Below, piece by piece: positions 9,794 to 32,400 of a DNA stretch of 32,970 nt. Made by a program: the position numbers and the translations under genes. Source of the DNA: Planctomycetota bacterium. Lineage in GTDB: Bacteria > Planctomycetota > JAJSAM01. The stretch covers positions 1 to 32,970 of the forward strand of contig JALOQY010000013.1 in the NCBI GenBank assembly GCA_025459285.1. Reading direction: 5' to 3'. The stretch's first letter is position 1; each line of letters opens with the position of its first letter. The notes below the pieces were generated by a model. It searched no databases and was not told the origin of the DNA. It worked only from the letters and a program-made list of their open reading frames with translations.

Positions 9794-9943
9794 ACCCTCC
9801 GGGGACGAGGAAGTTTCGTCCGCCGACCGGAACATCCTACCCCATGGCGCGCCCCGCGGTTTCACGCCGGCCGCGCGTCCGGCGCGGACGGAGGTGCGAA
9901 GCGGATCTCGAGTGCATCCGCTGGTCGTGACTTCCCCTCATCC

Positions 9944-9998
9944 AAATCGAAATCGAAATCGGTATCGGTATCGGTATCGCAATCGGTATCGCAATCGC
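9944..9998. repeat. Hexanucleotide array, downstream end of element A
   Basis: About nine imperfect 6-bp units of the ATCGAA / ATCGGT / ATCGCA type on the plus strand. Read along the element (minus strand) they are TTCGAT-type, the inverse of the array at its other end. The two arrays therefore form degenerate terminal inverted repeats. Confidence 0.9.
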
Positions 9999-10017
9999 AA
10001 CCCCCCTCCCGCCCTCC

Positions 10018-10245
10018 GTACCCGGCAGGCTCCTCGCCCACCTGGAAGCCCCTTCCACCCAACCGGCTGAGCATGGCGGCCATGCGATCCGACATCCTTT
10101 TGCGGGCCGGGCTCTCGGCTTCGTCCAGGGCCTCGCCAACGACCAGGACATCCTGAATGGCGGCGCACTCCAAGTGGTCGAGTCGTGGGCCTTCTCGAAA
10201 GGTCACGCCACGAAGCCGATGCGAGCTGATGGGCATCGAGTTTCT
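10018..10245 (-). pseudogene. Remnant of an S23-family four-helix-bundle protein (copy A)
   Basis: The N-terminal KLDAHQLAS and, after a frame change and an internal deletion, LECAAIQDVLVVGEALDEAE followed by RMSDRMAAMLSRLGG can be read. This is the start and the C-terminal helix of the S23 (23S rRNA intervening-sequence protein) family. The middle, including the family's SIPLNIAEGNGK-like segment, is missing, about 130-140 nt relative to copy B. The break lies at about 10172-10186, where short similar sequences (CTTGACC / CTCGGCC in the intact form) could have recombined. No intact start or stop is evident. Normal family length is about 115-125 residues. Confidence 0.75.
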
Positions 10246-10264
10246 CGTGTTCTGGGGCCGTGGT

Positions 10265-10326
10265 TTTTCGATTTCGATTTCGATTTCGATTCCGATTTCG
10301 ATTTCGACTCCGATCCCGATTTCGAT
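10265..10326. repeat. Hexanucleotide array, upstream end of element A
   Basis: About ten 6-bp units, mostly TTCGAT on the plus strand with TCCGAT and CCCGAT variants. Along the element (minus strand) it reads ATCGAA. It translates into dipeptide strings in some frames, which are meaningless as protein. Confidence 0.92.
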
Positions 10327-10428
10327 TGTCCGGACTGACGGTCACGAATCCCGATCTGGCCTTCGGGCTCGTGGGCGCCTCCGGCGTCGCGGCGGTGGAC
10401 CGATGGTCGGTGGTAGGATCTGGGGGTC

Positions 10429-19210: not shown

Positions 19211-19241
19211 ATCGAAATCGAAATCGAAATCGGAGTCGAAA
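19211..19241. repeat. Hexanucleotide array, upstream end of element B
   Basis: About five units of ATCGAA type with one GGAGTCGAA variant. It corresponds to 10265-10326 of copy A and is shorter. Confidence 0.88.
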
Positions 19242-19263
19242 CGACACGGGCCCTCGACACGCG

Positions 19264-19560
19264 AGACTTGATCCTCATCGGCTCGCCATCGGCTGCGTGA
19301 CGCCGGTTTTCGAGAAGGCCCACGACTTGACCGGCGTTCATCGGTCGGCAAGAGACCGATGGCTTTGCGCCAGCCAGTACATTCCATTGAGCATCGCCGA
19401 AGGCAATGGGAAGACCGCCGGTGCGGATCGACGCCGGTGTTTCGAGATCGTGCGTGGCTCGGCCTTGGACGAAGCCGAGAGCCCGCCCGCAAGGGGGTGT
19501 TGGATCGCATGGCCGCCATGCTCAGCCGACTGGGCGGGGGGGCTTCCGGGTGGGCGAGGA
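19264..19560 (+). pseudogene. Remnant of an S23-family four-helix-bundle protein (copy B)
   Basis: One frame gives LDPHRLAIGC, PVFEKAHDL, YIPLSIAEGNGKTAGADRRR and CFEIVRGSAL, the core of the S23 four-helix-bundle family (usual form SIPLNIAEGNGKR ... RFFEIARGSALEC). Exactly 45 nt are then missing relative to copy A: the 15 residues ECAAIQDVLVVGEAL, between GGCCTTGGA and GGCCCTGGA. A one-base loss (CCCGCCCGC versus CCCGGCCCGC) then shifts the frame, so DRMAAMLSRLGG is read in a second frame. Copies A and B combined give about 106 residues, close to the family length. Both are inactivated. Confidence 0.82.
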
Positions 19561-19582
19561 GCATGGCAGGTGCGGAGGGCCT

Positions 19583-19634
19583 GATTCCGATGCCGATCCC
19601 GATCCCGATAGCGATTTCGATTTCGATTTCGATA
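19583..19634. repeat. Hexanucleotide array, downstream end of element B
   Basis: About eight TTCGAT / CCCGAT / GCCGAT units. It is inverse to the upstream array and equivalent to 9944-9998 of copy A. Confidence 0.9.
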
Positions 19635-19675
19635 TGGATGAGGGGAAAGCAGAACCAGCGGAGGCGCTGGAAACA

Positions 19676-20027: not shown

Positions 20028-20876
20028 TCAGTGGATCAGGTAGAGCAGGGGGAAGAGGAAGATCCAGATGACGTCCACGAGGTGCCAGTAGAGCCCCCCG
20101 AGGTCCACCGGCAGCCAGTACGAGGGCGAGAACGCCCCGCGCCGGGCCCGGAAGAAGAGCCACGCGATCACGATCATCCCGGCGATCACGTGGAGGCCGT
20201 GGAGGCCGGTCATCACGAAGTAGATCCCGAAGAAGAGGTGGACGCTCTTCCGGCCGGCCTCGGCGGCGACCTCCCGTGTGGGCGGTGGCGCCAGGCCCTC
20301 GGGACCGGCGGCGGACGGCACGAGGCGCGGAGCGTCGGCGGCGCCCGGAGGGGGAGCCGGCGCGCCGGCGGGGGCCGGATCGGCGGGCGCCGGGGCCGGC
20401 GGGGCGTCGGGCGGCGCGTCCGCGGGCGCAACGGGGACGCGGCCCGCGCCGGTCTTCTCCGCCGCCGGCTGGAAGTGCCGTCCCGGCAGCAGTCCGTCCC
20501 GGATCTTGTGGCTGTACTCCACGTACTTCACGCCGAGGAAGCAGCACGCGAAGAGGAAGGTCGCCGCAAGGAAACCCAGCAGGGCCCTCCGGTTCCCGAG
20601 CTGCGCCGCGCGGACGGCGAGCGCCATCGTCACCGAGGAGACGATGAGGACGATCGTGTTGAGACCACCGAGAGACTTGTCGAGGTAGCGATGCCCGGCG
20701 AGGAAGACCTCCGGCTGATTGGCGCGATAGACGGCGTACCAGCAGAAGAGCCCGCCGAAGAGCAGCACCTCCGTCACGAGGAACAGCCACATGCCGAGCT
20801 TGCCGGCCTCGAACTGCTGGCGGGGCGTCTCGTAGTGGTGAGCGAGGTGCGCGGGGTGGTCCGGGGCGTGGCTCAC
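20028..20876 (-). CDS. ctaE: Cytochrome c oxidase subunit III with a Pro/Ala-rich insert
   Basis: 282 residues from a GTG that overlaps the coxI stop (GTGA), with AAGGAGG 8-9 nt upstream. The family core is clear: [20 protein letters not shown] ([12 protein letters not shown]), [40 protein letters not shown], then [24 protein letters not shown], and the ending [20 protein letters not shown]. Between the third and fourth helices, residues about 136-208 are a low-complexity Pro/Ala/Asp linker ([20 protein letters not shown]) not present in typical subunit III. The insert keeps the frame, and the helices on both sides are intact, so the protein is probably functional. Subunit III stabilises the oxygen-reducing core. 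Confidence 0.93.
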
Positions 20877-22534
20877 GAGGAACCCTCCTTCGCCGCCGGC
20901 CGGAAGCCGTCGGAAGCCTCGTCGTACACGAGGCCGGCGAGGTCGTAGGGATCGCCGACGTGCGGCGCCTCGACGAAGTTGTGGAGCGGAGGCGGGGAGG
21001 ACGTCTGCCACTCCATGGTCGCCGCCCCGAACGGGTTCGCGGCGGCCTTCTTCCCGCGGAAGATCGCGTGCACGAGCGTGAAGAACGCGATGAGGAAACC
21101 GATCGAGAGGAAGTAGCCGCCCAGCGTGGAGAGCACGTGGAGCGACTCGAATTCCGGCGGATAGTTGTAGTAGCGGCGCGGCATGCCGCGCAGACCGAGG
21201 ATGAACTGCGGGAAGAAGGTGACGTTGAAGCCGATGAAGACGACGACCGCGGAGACCTTCCCCCAGAACTCGACGTACATGCGCCCGAAGAACTTCGGCC
21301 ACCAGAAGAACAGGGCGCCCATGAGGGCCATGACGGGCCCGCCGAACATCGTGTAGTGGAAGTGCGACACCACGAAGTACGTGTCGTGGACGTGGATGAC
21401 CGTCGCCAGGGCCCCGAGGAACAGGCCGGTGAGCCCACCGATCCCGAACAGGAAGATGAAGCCGAGGATCCACAGCATCGGGGTCTTCAGCACGATGTTG
21501 CCCCGGAACATCGTGGCCAGCCAGTTGAAGACCTTCACCGCCGAGGGGATCGCCACGCTGAAGGTGAGCGCGGAGAAGATCGTGTTCGCGAGCGGGGACT
21601 GGCCGCTCGTGAACATATGGTGGCCCCACACCAGGAACGAGAGGAAGGCGATGGCGATGCTCGAGCCGGCGATGAAGCTGTAGCCGAAGATGTGCTTGCG
21701 GGAGAAGACGGAGATCACCTCGGAGACCACGCCCATCGCCGGCAGGATCATGATGTAGACCGCGGGATGGGAATAGAACCAGAAGAAGTGCTGGTAGAGC
21801 ACCGGGTCTCCCCCCAGGGCGGGGTCGAAGATGCCCACCCCCACGACTCGCTCGACGATGAGGAGGATGAGCGTGATCCCGAGCACCGGCGTGGCGAGGA
21901 CCTGGATGATCGCGGTGGCGTACAGCGCCCAGAGGAGGAGCGGCATCCGGAACCAGCCCATCCCCGCGGGCCGGAGCTTGTGGATCGTGACGATGAAGTT
22001 GAGGCCGGTGAAGACGGAGGAGAAGCCGAGGATGAACGCCCCCATGGTCATCGGCACGACCGCGGTGGAGGTCTCCGTGCTGTAAGGGGTGTAGAAGGTC
22101 CAGCCCGTGTCGACGGCGCCGATGAGGATGGAGGCGAGGGCGAAGAGCGAACCGACGACGTAGAGCCACCAGGAGGCGAGGTTCAGCCGCGGGAAGGCCA
22201 CGTCCTTCGCCCCGAGCATCAGGGGCAGGACGAAGTTCCCGATCACCGCCGGGATGCCCGGGATGATGAACAGGAAGATCATCACCGCCCCATGGAGCGT
22301 GAACATCTGGTTGTAGGTCTGCGCGTCCATGATCGTGCGCTGGGGAGTCAGCAGTTCCGTGCGCACGAGGAGGGCGAACAGCCCCCCGAGCAGGAACGAC
22401 GCCATGACGCTGACGAGGTAGAGGACCCCGATCCGCTTGTGGTCCAGCGTGAAGATCCAGGACCTGATCCCCCGGCCCTCCTGGAGATAGCTCCGGGGCT
22501 CGGCCCCGGGAACGGCGGCCTCGACGGTGCTCAT
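20873..22534 (-). CDS. ctaD: Cytochrome c oxidase subunit I, A2-type haem-copper oxidase
   Basis: 553 residues, 12 or more membrane helices. It reduces oxygen at the haem-Cu-B centre and pumps protons. It shows [20 protein letters not shown] (low-spin haem His), [20 protein letters not shown] (Cu-B His and the cross-linked Tyr), [13 protein letters not shown] (Cu-B His pair), and [17 protein letters not shown] (haem ligands). The D-channel glutamate of GHPEVY is absent and replaced by the YSHPAVY arrangement, which defines the A2 subtype found in many caa3 oxidases. The K-channel-type segments look normal. The ATG lies 1 nt after the coxII stop, with GAGGAG 7 nt upstream, and the stop overlaps coxIII. 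Confidence 0.96.
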
Positions 22535-22535
22535 C

Positions 22536-23715
22536 TCACTTCTCCTCGGCGAGAGTCTTCAGGAACGCGATGACGGCGTCGATCTCCCGGTCGGTGAGCC
22601 GCCCGCGGTACGTCGGCATCACCGGGTCGAAGCCCGAAACGATCTTCGCGTTGGGGTCGAGGATCGACTCCCGGATGTAGTTCTCCTCCACCGTGACCGG
22701 CGGCCCCTGGCGCATGGCATGGGTCTTCCCCCAGATGCCCTTGAAGGTCGGCCCCACGTTGGCGCCGCCGTCGACGGAATGGCAGGACCGGCATCCGCCC
22801 TTCCGCTCGTAGATGTAGCGGCCGGCCTCCGTGAGGTCCGGCGCCCGGGACAGGGCGTCGGGGAAGGCGTCCACGAGGAGGAATCGGTTCAGTCCGATGC
22901 GATCGTCGCCCGCCGGCGGGGGATCCGCGGCGAGGAGTTGTCGCGCCTCCTCGGAAACGGCGACGCCCGCGAACCTCGCCTCGTCGTAGATCGGATCCCC
23001 GGTGAGGACGGCGTTCAGATCGTCGACGACCACCTTCCGGAGTTCCTCGGAAACCGCTCCGCCCGGCCACGCCGAGATCTTTTCCCGCGTCTCCGGGGCG
23101 AGCCTCTCGAGCAGCCAGACGCGGACCGGCGCGCCGCCGGTCTTCAGCGCACGGAGGAGTCCCGCCGCGTCCGTCAGGTCCGCGGGGCGGAAGACGGGGG
23201 AGAGCATGTTGCTCGCCTTCTTCAGCCAGTCCTCGTACCCCCCCGGCGGATGGACGACGACCGTGGTGAGCATGTCGGAGTGGCCGGTGCCGCAGTACTC
23301 GGTGCACAGGAGCGGGAACTCGCCGATCTTCGTGGCCTTGAACCAGGCCTTGTTGTAGCGGCCCGGCACCACGTCCATCTTCATCCGGAAGGCCGGGATC
23401 CAGAGGCTGTGGATCACGTCCTCGGAGGGCCCGGAAGCCGACCCAGAAGATCGCCACGACCACGAGGAAGGGGATGACCGTCCAGACGATCTCCACGACG
23501 TTGTGGCTCTTCGGGGCGGGCTTCGGTTCGTAGCCCTTCCGTCGCCGGTAGCGGACCGCGAAGAGGACCATCAGCCCCACGATGAGCGCGAAGAAGAAGG
23601 CCGAGATCCAGAAGATGAACTGGAAGACGAAGTCCACCTCGGAGGCCGTGGCCGATCCGGCGTCCGGCAGCCAGAACGTCGGCCCCGACTGCGCGAGGAC
23701 CGTGAGCAGGTTCAT
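22536..23715 (-). pseudogene. ctaC: Cytochrome c oxidase subunit II (caa3 type), broken by deletion and frameshift
   Basis: The 5' part (ATG at 23715, overlapping the SCO1 stop) encodes the signal/first helix and TM2: VDFVFQFIFWISAFFFALIV ... VVEIVWTVIPFLVVVAIFWV GFRAL. A different frame then continues with DVIHSLWIPAFRMKMDVVPG, CTEYCGTGHSDM (Cu-A ligands), and a C-terminal cytochrome c domain (GGCRSCHS, later DPVMPTYRG). The join is at about 23420-23432. By family comparison roughly 50-60 residues are lost, including the strand with the W-x-W aromatic patch that accepts electrons from cytochrome c, and the reading frame changes. A segment of about 115 residues between the Cu-A and haem domains (VRVWLLERLAPETREK ... 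GLNRFLLVDAFPDAL) is extra compared with common caa3 subunit II. Either a true disabling mutation or an assembly error is possible. Confidence 0.88.
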
Positions 23716-24530
23716 CGGGTCGTCCTCCGGCGGCGGAGCCACACGGGCAGGAGCAGCGCCGCGAGCAGCACGAGCACCGCGACCCCGGCGACCCGCATGA
23801 TCGTCATCGCCTGGAAGCTGTAGCGGCCGCTCTCCTCGTCATAGTGATAGCACCACAGGAGCAGGCTGTCGATCGTCCCGCCCTGCTTGCCCTCCGAGGC
23901 CTCGGCCAGAGAAAGACGCAAAGTCTGGGGATCGAACTGGACGCCCCGGATCGCCCGGGAGAGGACGCCCCGCGGCGTCAGGATGAAGATCGCCGCCCCG
24001 TGGGCGTACTGACCCGACTTCTCGTCGTAGCGGTAGTAGAAACCGACGGAGTCGGTGACCGCCCGGATGTCCTCCTCCCGGCCGGTGAGGAAGTGCCAGC
24101 CCCGGTTCGCCGCCGGACGGCCGTAGGCCTTCACGTAGTTCTGCTTCTTCAGCTTCGCGAGCTGCGGGGTCTCCTTCGGGTTGATGGAGATCGTCACGAC
24201 CTCGAACTCCTTCCCGGGATCCCAGGAGAGACCCTTCAGTCCGTCGAGAAGCGCGTTCAGGACGAGGCCGCAGAGCATCGGGCAGGAGTAGTAGCCGAGA
24301 TTCAGGAGCACCGGCCGGTTGGCGCCGAAGTAGTCACCGAGGCGCACGGCCTTCCCCGTCTCGTCCACGAAGGGCCGGTCGAGCGGCACCTGGGTCCCGG
24401 GAACGGGGCTGATCTCGACACCTTCGAGTTCCGCCGGCCGCGGCTCGGCCCGCTGGCCGCGGGCGGGGGCCGCGAGCAGCGCGAAGGCGAGGGCCGCGAC
24501 GGCCGCGTGGACCGATCGGAGGGGCTTCAC
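23712..24530 (-). CDS. SCO1/SenC copper chaperone for cytochrome oxidase
   Basis: 272 residues. Signal peptide HAAVAALAFALLAAPARG. The thioredoxin-like core has NRPVLLNLGYYSCPMLCGLV with the copper-binding CPMLC near residue 84, FEVVTISINPKETPQLAKLK, and the third ligand His in GQYAHGAAIFILTPRGVLSR near 176. A C-terminal membrane helix (VAGVAVLVLLAALLLPVWL) tethers it to the membrane. SCO proteins deliver copper or reduce the Cu-A cysteines of subunit II, and the adjacent gene is subunit II, overlapping by 4 nt (ATGA). The start also overlaps the previous stop. The family is clear. Confidence 0.94.
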   Translation of the reverse strand: MKPLRSVHAAVAALAFALLAAPARGQRAEPRPAELEGVEISPVPGTQVPLDRPFVDETGKAVRLGDYFGANRPVLLNLGYYSCPMLCGLVLNALLDGLKGLSWDPGKEFEVVTISINPKETPQLAKLKKQNYVKAYGRPAANRGWHFLTGREEDIRAVTDSVGFYYRYDEKSGQYAHGAAIFILTPRGVLSRAIRGVQFDPQTLRLSLAEASEGKQGGTIDSLLLWCYHYDEESGRYSFQAMTIMRVAGVAVLVLLAALLLPVWLRRRRTTR

Positions 24531-24838
24531 TTGCCGCCTCCCTTCGACTGCGCCTCCAGGACGAGAAGCTCCATGGCCCGCTCGATCGGGATCCGCACGA
24601 GGCCCTTCTCGCGATCCGCATAGCCGTAGCTCGCGAGCTTCTCCTCCTGCTCCTCGATCGTCTGCCGGAGTTCCTCCGCTGGACCGGAGGCGGCCTTCCG
24701 GGCCAGTTCCCCCTCGGTGGCGGAGTTGAAGAGCGCGGTCAGGGCGATCACGGTCGCCACCGTGAGCAGGATGCCCACGGCGCCCACCGCGAGGATCTTC
24801 CCGACCTTCGTCTCGTCCTGGGGTCGTTCGGTGTCCAT
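24527..24838 (-). CDS. Small single-span membrane protein in the act-cox operon
   Basis: 103 residues. A short polar N-terminus (MDTERPQDETK) precedes one membrane helix, VGKILAVGAVGILLTVATVI ALTALF. A charged, probably coiled-coil stretch follows (LRQTIEEQEEKLASYGYADR), then the tail VRIPIERAMELLVLEAQSKG. The IPIERAMELLV motif is, from memory, a recurring end of small proteins in act-cox loci, but I cannot assign a named subunit. The start is 1 nt after the actF stop, and the stop overlaps SCO1. Its position suggests an accessory subunit or assembly factor linking complex III and the oxidase. Confidence 0.82.
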   Translation of the reverse strand: MDTERPQDETKVGKILAVGAVGILLTVATVIALTALFNSATEGELARKAASGPAEELRQTIEEQEEKLASYGYADREKGLVRIPIERAMELLVLEAQSKGGGK

Positions 24839-24839
24839 C

Positions 24840-26006
24840 TCAGAGGTTCTCGAAGGAAAGGGCCTCGGGGAGGCGCGGGTCGCGCGCCGGCAGCAGTGCG
24901 GTCTTCGACATGCGGAAGAGCAGGGCCGCCACGAAGAGCCCGCCGATCCCGAAGAAGCAGAAGACCTCGGCGAGCCCGAATTCGGTGGAGACGATGAAGA
25001 AGCAGTCGAGGAACCGGCCCACCAGGATCCACGCGGCGATCCCCGCAAGCAGGGCGGGCGTGCGCTTCGGCCGGCGTGGCAGCAGCGCGAGGAACGGCAG
25101 TGCGAACTGGCCGAGGACGAGGAAGAGCCCGATCCCCGCCGCGGAGCCGTGCTGGCGGTCGAGGTACCACCGCGTCTCCTCCGGGATGTTCGCGTACCAG
25201 ATCAGCATGTACTGGGAGAACGCGATGTAGGCCCAGAAGACGAGGTAGCCGAAGAGCTGCTTCCCCATGTCGTGGTAGTGCTCGGTCGTCACCGAGCGGG
25301 TGAGCCGGCCGGAGGATTGGAGGAGGTACACCGCGATCACGAGGACCGCGAAGAAGGCCACGAGACCGCCGGAGAAGTAGTAGACGCCGAAGATCGTGGA
25401 GAACCAGTGCGGGTCCCGGGACATCAGGAGGTCGAAGGCCGCCATGGTCACCGTCAGCGCGTAGAGGATCATCGCCGCTGGTGCGAACCGCTGCATCCGG
25501 TGGGTGAGCGCGACGTCGCCGGAGGCGTCCTGGCGCGCGGAGTTCGCGAGGAAGAAGCGTGAAAGCACGACCCAGACGGCGAAGCAGATGCCGGCCCGGG
25601 CGGTGAAGAACGCCGGGTCGAGCCACGCACTCTTCTCCCGAAGGAGCGGGTCTTCACCGGGGTGGGTCCAGTGGTAGAGGTCGGAGAGGCCCACGATCAC
25701 CGGCACGAAGAGCACGGCGAGGGGGAGCACGTTCGCGGCGAGATTCTCCGCGATCCGCCGCACCGTGACGCTCCAGCCGGAGCGCGTCAGATGCTGGATC
25801 AGGACGAAGAAGAGCGCGCCCAGCGAGATCGAGAGCCAGAAGGCGAGGCTTGCGAGGTAGCCGGCGAGGAACCGCGGGAAGCCCTCGATCAGGACGCCGG
25901 CGCCGAGGGCGGCGACGCCCACGAACGCGCAGGCGATCGCCGGGACGACCATGCCCCGGCCGATCCGGATCTCATCGTCGGGGATGGCCACGTGGGTCGC
26001 TTTCAT
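24840..26006 (-). CDS. actF: Alternative complex III subunit ActF
   Basis: 388 residues and about ten membrane helices. Landmarks: FLAGYLASLAFWLSISLGAL FFVLIQHLTRSGWSV, HWTHPGEDPLLREKSAWLDP, ALTVTMAAFDLLMSRDPHWF STIFGVYYFSGG, FGYLVFWAYIAFSQYMLIWY ANIPEET, and FLDCFFIVSTEFGL. Together these are distinctive of ActF, the NrfD-like membrane subunit that pairs with ActC in alternative complex III. The LTRSGW, SRDPHWFST and QYMLIWYANIPEE signatures make the call secure. The ATG at 26006 overlaps the actE stop (ATGA). The frame is open upstream, but that part is antisense-like. Confidence 0.95.
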   Translation of the reverse strand: MKATHVAIPDDEIRIGRGMVVPAIACAFVGVAALGAGVLIEGFPRFLAGYLASLAFWLSISLGALFFVLIQHLTRSGWSVTVRRIAENLAANVLPLAVLFVPVIVGLSDLYHWTHPGEDPLLREKSAWLDPAFFTARAGICFAVWVVLSRFFLANSARQDASGDVALTHRMQRFAPAAMILYALTVTMAAFDLLMSRDPHWFSTIFGVYYFSGGLVAFFAVLVIAVYLLQSSGRLTRSVTTEHYHDMGKQLFGYLVFWAYIAFSQYMLIWYANIPEETRWYLDRQHGSAAGIGLFLVLGQFALPFLALLPRRPKRTPALLAGIAAWILVGRFLDCFFIVSTEFGLAEVFCFFGIGGLFVAALLFRMSKTALLPARDPRLPEALSFENL

Positions 26007-26644
26007 CGGAGCGCCTCCCGGTACTCCGGAGGAACATCGGCCTCGGTGGCGTGTTGGCTGCGTCGGAGCGCGAGGACGTAGGCCACGATCGCCCAGCGGT
26101 CCGGAATCGGGATCTGGGGGCCGTAGGCCGGCATGTTCCGGATGCCCGTGCGGATCGTGTTGTAGAGATGGCCGGGGGGGCGGGAGAACGCCGGCTCCGC
26201 GTGGAGGTCGCTCGGCGGCGTCCACGTGCCCTCCTCCAGCGATTCGGCGCGGAGCGCGACGGGACCGCGGCCGTCGCCGGTGAGTCCGTGGCACGTTGCG
26301 CAGAAGATGCCGAACCGCTCGCGGCCCCGTGCGAGGAGGTCGGCGGTGATCGGGACGGGGACCTCGGCCACGAATGCCTCACCGACCTTGCCGAGGGTCA
26401 CGGCGTCGTCCGGGAGGAGTTCCCCGCGGGCCACGGTGCCGGGGATCGGATGGCGCATCGCGCGGCCGTCGGCGAAGACCGGGTTTCCCTGCTGAGCCTT
26501 GAACTTCGGCTGGGCGTCCATGTCGAAGAAGAGGTGAACGGCCGGCTTCTTCGACTTCGAGACCCTCGCGTTCAGGGCGAAGGCGAGCGGGACGAACGTG
26601 GCCGCCACGAGGACCGCCACGATGGGTTTCACGAAGCGCGGCAT
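26003..26644 (-). CDS. actE: Alternative complex III subunit ActE, monohaem cytochrome c
   Basis: 213 residues. An N-terminal membrane or lipid anchor region (VKPIVAVLVAATFVPLAFAL) is followed by a cytochrome c fold with one haem site, RFGIFCATCHGLTGDGRGPV, and a likely methionine ligand in IRTGIRNMPAYGPQIPIPDR. The segment MDAQPKFKAQQGNPVFADGR is typical of ActE. It probably passes electrons from the ActA/ActB haems to the oxidase. No Cys is placed for a lipobox, so it seems anchored by the helix. The ATG is 1 nt after the actCD stop, with GGAGGG 8 nt upstream. Confidence 0.94.
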   Translation of the reverse strand: MPRFVKPIVAVLVAATFVPLAFALNARVSKSKKPAVHLFFDMDAQPKFKAQQGNPVFADGRAMRHPIPGTVARGELLPDDAVTLGKVGEAFVAEVPVPITADLLARGRERFGIFCATCHGLTGDGRGPVALRAESLEEGTWTPPSDLHAEPAFSRPPGHLYNTIRTGIRNMPAYGPQIPIPDRWAIVAYVLALRRSQHATEADVPPEYREALR

Positions 26645-26645
26645 G

Positions 26646-28627
26646 TCAGCGGCCCTCCGCGGGGTGCTCGGCGAGGTACTCGACCGAAAGCGGGGACAGC
26701 GAGGCCAGGAACGGCCCGGTCCTCTCCGCCGAGAACCTCGGATCGGCGGCGTCGATGCCCACGAAGAAGCGGTCCTTCGTCACCCGCCGGAAGCGCTCGG
26801 AGAGGAACGACGGGTGCCAGAAGCGGGGGAGGCGATTCGCCGCGAGCATGCCGAAGAAGGCTCCGAAGGCCGCGAAGAGGATCGTCAGCTCGAAGCTCAC
26901 CGGGATCGCCGCGGGCAGCCCGAAGAGCGGTTTCCCGGAGATGATGAAGGGGTAGTCCACGGCGTTCGTGAACCACTGGAGGGCGAGCCCCAGGGCCGCG
27001 CCGGACAGGCCGCCGCCAAAGACGAGGAGCGGCAGGCGCGAGCGCCGGATCCCCATGGCCCGGTCGAGCCCGTGGACCGGGAACGGGGAGTAGGCGTCGA
27101 AGTCCCGGTAGCCCTCCTCCCGGACCCTCCCGCAGGCGATCCGGAAGGTCTCGGGGTCCGCGAACTCCGCGACCGCGCCGAGGCAGCCGGCGGGGACCGG
27201 GGGGACCTCGGGGCGGGCGGCCGGCGCCGGCTCCGGTTCGGGGAGGATCGCCTTCACCTCCGCCATGGCCATCATGGGGAGCCACCGCACGAACAGGAGG
27301 AACAGGTGGAAGAAGAGGCCGAACGTCCCGAGGAAGGTGAGCCAGTCCACCCAGGTCGGTGTGTAGTGACCCCAGGAACTCGGCAGGAAGTCCCGGGAGA
27401 GCGAGGTCGTGACGATCACGAACCGCTCGAACCACATGCCGATGTTCACGAGGATGGCGATCACGAACAGCGCCTTGACGTTCTTCCGGATGCGGCGGCT
27501 CCAGAGGAACTGCGGGACGAAGACGTTGCAGAAGACCATCGACCAGTAGGCCCACGAGTAGGGGCCGAGGGCGCGGTTGAGGAACGCGAACCGCTCGTAG
27601 GCGTTGCCGGAGTACCACGCCATGAACAGCTCGATCGAGTAGGCGAAGCCCACGATGGAGCCGGTGACGAGGATGATCCGGGCGATGTTGTCGAGGTGCC
27701 GGGCGGTGACGAAGCTCTCGAGGGAGAACCACTTCCGCGCCGGGATGATGAGCATCAGCACCATCGCGAAGCCGCTGAAGATCGCGCCGACCACGAAGTA
27801 CGGCGGGAAGATGGTGGTGTGCCAGCCGGGGATCTGCGAGACCGCGAAGTCGAAGCTCACCACGGAGTGGACGGAGAGCACGAGGGGCGTGGCGAGCGCG
27901 GCGAGGAGCAGGTAGGCCACCTCGTAGCGGTGCCAGTGCCGGTGCGAGCCGCGCCAGCCGAGGGAGAAGAGGCCGTAGGCGATGCGCTTCACCTTCGTGG
28001 TCGCGCGGTCCCGGAGGCTCGCGAGGTCCGGGATCATCCCCATGTACCAGAAGAGCAGCGACACCGTGGCGTAGGTGCCCACGGCGAAGACGTCCCAGAC
28101 CAGGGGGCTCCGGAAGTTCGGCCACATGCCCATCTGGTTCGGAAGCGGGAAGACCCAGTAGAGCATCCAGACGCGCCCCACGTGGATCGCCGGGAAGATG
28201 CCGGCGCACATGACGGCGAAGATCGTCATGGCCTCGGCGAAGCGGTTGATGCTCGTGCGCCACTTCTGTCGGAAGAGGAACAGGATCGCGGAGATCAGCG
28301 TGCCGGCGTGGCCGATGCCCACCCAGAAGACGAAGTTGATGATCGCGAAGCCCCAGCCCACCGGCCGGTTGATGCCCCACACCCCGAGCCCGGTGAAGAC
28401 GAGGTAGCCGATCATCAGGAGGAGCAGCGTCACGAGGCCGCCGGAAGCGAGGAAGGCGATCTTCCAGGCGGTCGGGGTCTCCTTCCGCTCGGCGATCCCG
28501 CAGATCGCGTCGGTCACCGAGGCGTAGTCGTGGCCGTCGAGGACGAGGTCCGCGCGGCGGGCCGGGTCCTCGACGGTGTTGTCGCGGGATGGGGAGGTGT
28601 CGCGGGAGACGGGCACGACGGACGCGG

Positions 28628-28631
<4 letters not shown>
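26646..28631 (-). CDS. actCD: Fused alternative complex III subunits ActC and ActD
   Basis: 661 residues. Residues about 1-455 are the NrfD-like quinone-binding membrane protein ActC ([84 protein letters not shown], and [20 protein letters not shown]). A Pro/Ala/Glu-rich linker ([18 protein letters not shown]) lies near 460-475. The C-terminal part is ActD (DUF3341): [40 protein letters not shown], two helices, [20 protein letters not shown], and a final [16 protein letters not shown]. No stop separates them. In most organisms actC and actD are separate genes. The GTG at 28631 overlaps the actB stop and follows GGAGGT. Confidence 0.95.
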
Positions 28632-31479
<2,848 letters not shown>

Positions 31480-31483
<4 letters not shown>

Positions 31484-32151
31484 CGGTGGCACGTGGAGCA
31501 GTCGGTGGAGGGGTCCACGCCGAGTTCCCGCCGGATCCGCTCGCCGGTCTCCCGGGCGTCGCCGTCGGGCATCCAGTCCATCTTCGTCACCGCTTCCGGG
31601 GGCCGGAGCCAGGGGGCGGGATCGCGATGGCAGTCGAGGCACCAGCCCATGGAGAGCGGCTCGTGCTGGTACACGACCTCCATCCGGTCCACGCGGCCGT
31701 GGCAGGAGACGCAGCCCACGCCCCGCCGCACATGGGCCTCGTGGCTGAAGTAGGCGTAGTCCGGCAGGTCGTGGACCCGGACCCAGCGGATCGGGAGGCC
31801 GGTCCGGTGGCTCGAGAAGACCGGGGCGAGCTTCTCGCTCGTCGTGCGGACCGTGGCGTGGCAGTTCATGCAGGTCGCGGTGGGGGGGACGGCGGCGTGG
31901 GACGAGGATTCCACGCCGTCGTGGCAGTACCGGCAGTCGATACCCAGTTCGCCGGCGTGGAGCCGATGGCTGTAGGCGACGGGCTGATCGGGCTGGTAGC
32001 CGACGTTCAGCGTCGAGGGGGAACCCGCGTACGCGAGCATGAAGACGGCGAAGACCACGCCGCCCGCGAGCAGGAGCCCGAGGAGCTTCACGAACCGGTC
32101 GAACCACCGGGGGAAGATCGGCCCCGGGGGCGCCTGTGGAGCGTCATTCAT
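31480..32151 (-). CDS. actA: Alternative complex III subunit ActA, pentahaem cytochrome c
   Basis: 223 residues. One N-terminal membrane helix (LLGLLLAGGVVFAVFMLAYA) anchors a periplasmic domain with five CxxCH haem sites: CRYCH, CMNCH, CVSCH, CLDCH and CSTCH. Other family landmarks are QPDQPVAYSHRLHAGELGID and HDLPDYAYFSHEAHVRRGVG, whose His residues serve as distal ligands. It is the first gene of the operon and receives electrons from ActB. The leader upstream of the ATG at 32151 has only a poor Shine-Dalgarno. The frame is open further upstream, but those residues lack family character. Confidence 0.95.
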
Positions 32152-32231
32152 GGGTGCACCGAGATGGTCGGGAAGCCGCGGGAGGAGTCGGGAAACCGCG
32201 GGATCGCCCAAGTCCACACTGGAGTCCCGCG

Positions 32232-32260
32232 ATGGTATCGGCGCCGGCGACCGCGTGCAA
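32232..32260 (-). promoter_or_regulatory. Putative promoter P1 of the act-cox operon
   Basis: On the minus strand TTGCAC (32255-32260) and TACCAT (32232-32237) are 17 nt apart, the optimal spacing. The -10 box keeps TA..AT (4 of 6) and the -35 box keeps TTG (3 of 6). It would start transcription about 75 nt upstream of actA. Confidence 0.35.
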
Positions 32261-32299
32261 GAAAGGGGGAAAAAACGACACTGCGGCCGGGTCCGGCGA

Positions 32300-32364
32300 C
32301 GGGAGGGTGGGCGGGTCGCCCCTCCCGGCCCGCCATGCCCCCCCCGCGTCAGCGCGAGGGGGGC
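32300..32364 (-). other. Two strong hairpins in the leader region upstream of actA
   Basis: Hairpin 1 (32337-32364) pairs an arm of seven G/C bases plus CGCG around a TCAG tetraloop, 11 pairs with one C-A mismatch. Hairpin 2 pairs GGGAGGG (32301-32307) with CCCTCCC (32320-32326). On the minus strand a T6 tract lies about 25 nt beyond hairpin 2 (32270-32275). The pair may end transcription of the right-edge gene before the act-cox operon, or attenuate a longer transcript. The T-run is too far from the stem for a textbook terminator. Confidence 0.35.
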
Positions 32365-32400
32365 TTCAGACGGAGCCACTCCGGTGGGTCTGCACCCATT

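Follow-up and report, generated by a model that had tools for sequence, protein, structure and literature searches.

The window analyzed here, a stretch of 32,970 nucleotides from the genome of a Planctomycetota bacterium (contig JALOQY010000013.1), carries an ordinary operon for an alternative complex III (ACIII) and a caa3-type oxidase, whose subunit II gene, coxB/ctaC (23715-22536, minus strand), is short by 146 nt as assembled. We consider it somewhat probable that the deposited sequence is wrong at the junction created by this lesion, and that the coxB of the organism itself is intact. The operon is collinear with contig C9 of a relative from the same family (G002), and its parts in the window are as follows:

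20034-20933 (extent of the match), minus strand: subunit III region, intact; full-length single-frame match to G002, 55% identity
20873-22534, minus strand: coxA, subunit I, intact; PF00115, E=8e-151, over 1-435/436; 78% identity to G002 over the full length
22536-23426, minus strand: coxB/ctaC second fragment, with CuA ligands and cytochrome c domain; PF00116, PF00034, PF13442
23424-23427, minus strand: junction; 1 nt between the two parts, where G002 and eleven other loci have 147 nt, with a switch of frame
23425-23715, minus strand: coxB/ctaC first fragment, with TM1 and TM2, ending FWVGFRA(L); PF02790 (COX2_TM), E=3.7e-13
23712-24530, minus strand: SCO1-like copper chaperone gene, intact; open frame inside a full-length match to G002
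24527-32379, minus strand: Act genes for alternative complex III, lying upstream of those for the oxidase, all in single frames; full-length matches to G002:C9

The names of the Act subunits were assigned by sequence character and order, and the SCO1-like label likewise reflects the character of the sequence rather than a profile match. coxB is the only split gene; the others are each recovered as a single, full-length, one-frame match to G002, which bears out the initial annotation in its statement that every other gene of the operon is intact.

The first coxB fragment (P0002) opens at an ATG at 23715 in frame -1 and shares 61-62% identity with residues 24-125 of the G002 homologue; past the junction, its frame continues out of register to 22531. 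The second (P0001) starts with SEDVIHSLWIPAFRMKMDVVPG... in frame -2, runs to a stop at 22536 and is 55% identical to residues 175-466. Both map to a single 474-codon frame of G002, with an overall identity of 56%. Between them, they preserve several features of a caa3-type subunit II: (i) the two N-terminal TM helices (COX2_TM); (ii) the CuA ligand set (H...CxExCxxxHxxM), formed by DVIHS and CTEYCGTGHSDM in the second fragment; (iii) a fused C-terminal cytochrome c domain with a CxxCH motif (CRSCH), detected by PF00034 and PF13442 in the second frame. Two other features are lacking, namely a complete CuA cupredoxin domain, with PF00116 (COX2) matched over positions 62/65-115 of 120 only (the match in G002 starts at 44), and one continuous reading frame, which is broken at 23424-23427. 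No further lesion occurs in 297 codons, and the two parts of coxB are conserved relative to G002 (62% and 55%) like most of the neighboring operon genes (52-60%); hence, nothing suggests that the gene has been decaying for long.

Since two significant pieces of one gene adjoin each other in different frames, chance is not at issue. The start position of the Pfam match, surveyed across 294 genomes of the phylum, is a poor control, since many intact homologues begin at positions 44-56; instead, we used the DNA spacing between aligned columns, in homologues that came from GTDB genomes as well as from the genome search. At the junction the minus strand reads ...TTC TGG GTC GGC TTC CGG GCC / C / TCC GAG GAC GTG ATC CAC..., such that FWVGFRA is followed by SEDVIHS in a shifted frame and the FRA-to-SED spacing is 1 nt. 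In G002 and eleven further loci (L004, L007, L014, L017, L032, L033, L035-L038 and L040) this spacing amounts to exactly 147 nt; in the remaining measured homologues it is 138-252 nt, with a minimum anywhere of 138 nt. The figure of 146 nt assumes that the intact gene of the window has the 147-nt spacing; being equal to 48 codons plus 2 nt, it entails a shift of the reading frame. None of the 48 loci in a second reading, some of them common to the first, has lost the segment, and about 50 homologues have been covered in all, with G002 furnishing the only same-family subunit II homologue found. The lesion and the loss of frame described by the initial annotation are thus directly observed in the assembled sequence; its estimate of 50-60 lost residues is slightly high, the DNA spacing giving 48-49.

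The missing 48-49 residues, whose counterpart in G002 is YMKLTVPPSNAYEIQVVGQKWKWLFEYPNGWVDDRLHVPGDRAILLTMR, belong to the CuA cupredoxin domain, of which they form the first half; they hold its initial strands as well as the W-x-W motif. This region, VVGQKWKWLFEYPNG in G002, is gone from the subunit II of the window, just as had been claimed. We take the W-x-W motif of G002 to lie at the same position as W121 of Paracoccus and W104 of the bovine enzyme. This tryptophan has been proposed as the electron entry site, a proposal that is both recounted and disputed in PMC5286356. In caa3 enzymes electrons enter via the fused cytochrome c domain, which lies near ActE in the Rhodothermus marinus supercomplex (PMC5928083). 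Since subunit II thus comes with a cytochrome c domain fused to it as the usual point of entry, the earlier description of the lost part as a cytochrome-c docking region is only partly apt: what is missing is the initial half of the CuA domain with the W-x-W motif, while the fused domain is intact downstream, albeit out of frame. Judging from the known fold, loss of the first CuA strands and of the frame would abolish the CuA center. Translated as written, the gene would yield TM1 and TM2 followed by out-of-frame residues; the CuA domain would remain unfolded and the oxidase would receive no electrons. The expectation that a genuine lesion would disable the oxidase is, in this respect, soundly reasoned.

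It strikes us as extremely improbable that coxB nevertheless functions in its present form, whether a shortened CuA domain arises through ribosomal frameshifting or hopping or the two fragments are made as distinct polypeptides. Each fragment retains an open frame and conserved sequence, and the second holds the whole set of CuA ligands; however, the second fragment has neither a membrane anchor nor a signal, the nearest start codon to its beginning is a GTG inside DVIHS, and the arrangement is seen in no relative. A change of frame would put the reading frame right but would not bring back the 48-49 residues kept by every homologue examined; programmed frameshifting or hopping is rejected, as the missing residues would stay missing.

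The wider genome (G000; 5.03 Mb in 534 contigs, 88.5% complete) bears on whether the lesion is real. In a profile search of the whole assembly, the COX2 and COX1 of the window were the sole matches to these domains; neither a second heme-copper oxidase nor a second copy of subunit II was found in it, and cytochrome bd had no match there. The missing piece of coxB is on none of the other contigs, a comparison for which the initial annotation had called. The NrfA-family matches cover only short segments within large frames and offer nothing firm on nitrite as an acceptor. Cytochrome bd is present in both family relatives, G001 and G002, and COX1 is found once in G002 and not at all in G001 (79% complete); incompleteness of the assemblies may explain these differences among the three genomes. 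As both relatives hold cytochrome bd, another oxidase may sit in the missing 12% of G000. Hence, the earlier claim that complex III would be left without this partner holds for the genes found in the assembly, but not necessarily beyond them, given an assembly that is 88% complete and relatives that carry cytochrome bd.

A real, recent 146-bp deletion, carried by the strain or by a fraction of its population and leaving the oxidase dead and the electrons of ACIII rerouted or idle, is a serious possibility, although not the one we favor. The presence of cytochrome bd in both relatives and the lack of a COX1 match in G001 count in its favor, as do the clean junction within the contig, without a repeat to explain a collapse, and the rarity of frame breaks in the sampled part of the assembly. 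However, the operon displays no other lesion or decay, neither bd nor a second heme-copper oxidase was found in G000, and the deletion is common to no relative examined. If true, oxidase loss would be at an early stage here, in a lineage with relatives that possess cytochrome bd as well. The stronger version, in which an ACIII-caa3 lineage has just lost oxidase function through a single fixed 146-bp deletion, thereby offering a snapshot of a switch from heme-copper respiration, appears unlikely.

We infer instead that the lesion is an artefact, with the stretch probably lost at the library or assembly stage, either through a short overlap that bridged a gap in coverage or through a chimeric fragment. 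The assembly is fragmented and incomplete, and on another of its contigs a gap of 29 N next to a run of poly-G suggests joins over poor sequence elsewhere. Moreover, the remaining operon genes are full length, the coxB fragments are as conserved as their neighbors, the roughly 50 homologues all retain the segment, and a real loss of coxB would be costly, since the COX1 and COX2 of the window are the only ones found and no cytochrome bd was detected. Against an artefact, the junction is clean, lies about 9.5 kb inside the contig without any N, has no repeat to drive a collapse, and is surrounded by GC content ordinary for JALOQY010000013.1. Our weighting of artefact and deletion is a matter of judgement, not computation. 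Classical repeat collapse is unsupported, as none of the 10-base words at the junction is found again on its other side in the assembled gene; if the lesion is artefactual, the likelier cause is a chimeric fragment or a faulty join across a coverage gap. Accordingly, the assembly collapse that had been raised as the main alternative survives as an artefact, which we favor, but not as a collapse of repeats.

A general control was provided by approximately 260 sampled matched pairs from G000, among which a single other convincing frame break was encountered, in a fragment of a transposase at the end of a contig; the remaining flagged pairs, as far as inspected, are antisense frames or neighboring genes. 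This indicates that the assembly is not generally error-prone, and we reject the idea that it is error-ridden throughout. Contig C29 of G000 (L130) has, at its end, a transposase-like gene (9859-10308) whose frame is interrupted at about 9985.

The window also contains repeats away from coxB. Two degenerate inverted copies of an element of 400-odd bases lie at 9908-10327 and 19211-19671, with arms 74-84% complementary, and are edged by hexanucleotide arrays of the ATCGAA/TTTCGA type. One frame of the element is reminiscent of a four-helix-bundle protein of the 23S rRNA IVS type, but NCBIfam gave it no match. Such arrays are rare in the sampled contigs of G000 (four in 608 kb, three of them in the window), and those sampled from G002 have none. 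At 1045-1116, downstream of the first gene, are two 36-base tandem copies, 97% alike, of GAAAAGTGAAAAGGTACGTACGTCCCCTAACGGATC.

The practical import is one of caution: an automated reading would call the only heme-copper oxidase found in this organism broken, or drop its subunit II, and automated annotation could wrongly score the organism as unable to use the heme-copper route to oxygen. Whether artefact or deletion, the lesion is private, affects a gene and an operon that are both already known, and involves no new mechanism or kind of system. It resembles the apparent pseudogenes of draft genomes, which carry an internal deletion or a frameshift, be it true or technical, in being a single internal lesion of a conserved gene in one assembly only, and the coxB of the window has no feature that distinguishes it from them. 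The closest counterpart of the system itself is the caa3 oxidase behind the Act cluster of Rhodothermus marinus (PMC5928083), with which it shares the two TM helices, the CuA ligands and the C-terminal cytochrome c domain of subunit II, as well as the location of this subunit, which follows the Act genes and adjoins subunits I and III; it departs from that system in its assembled coxB, where the CuA domain lacks 146 nt and the frame is broken.
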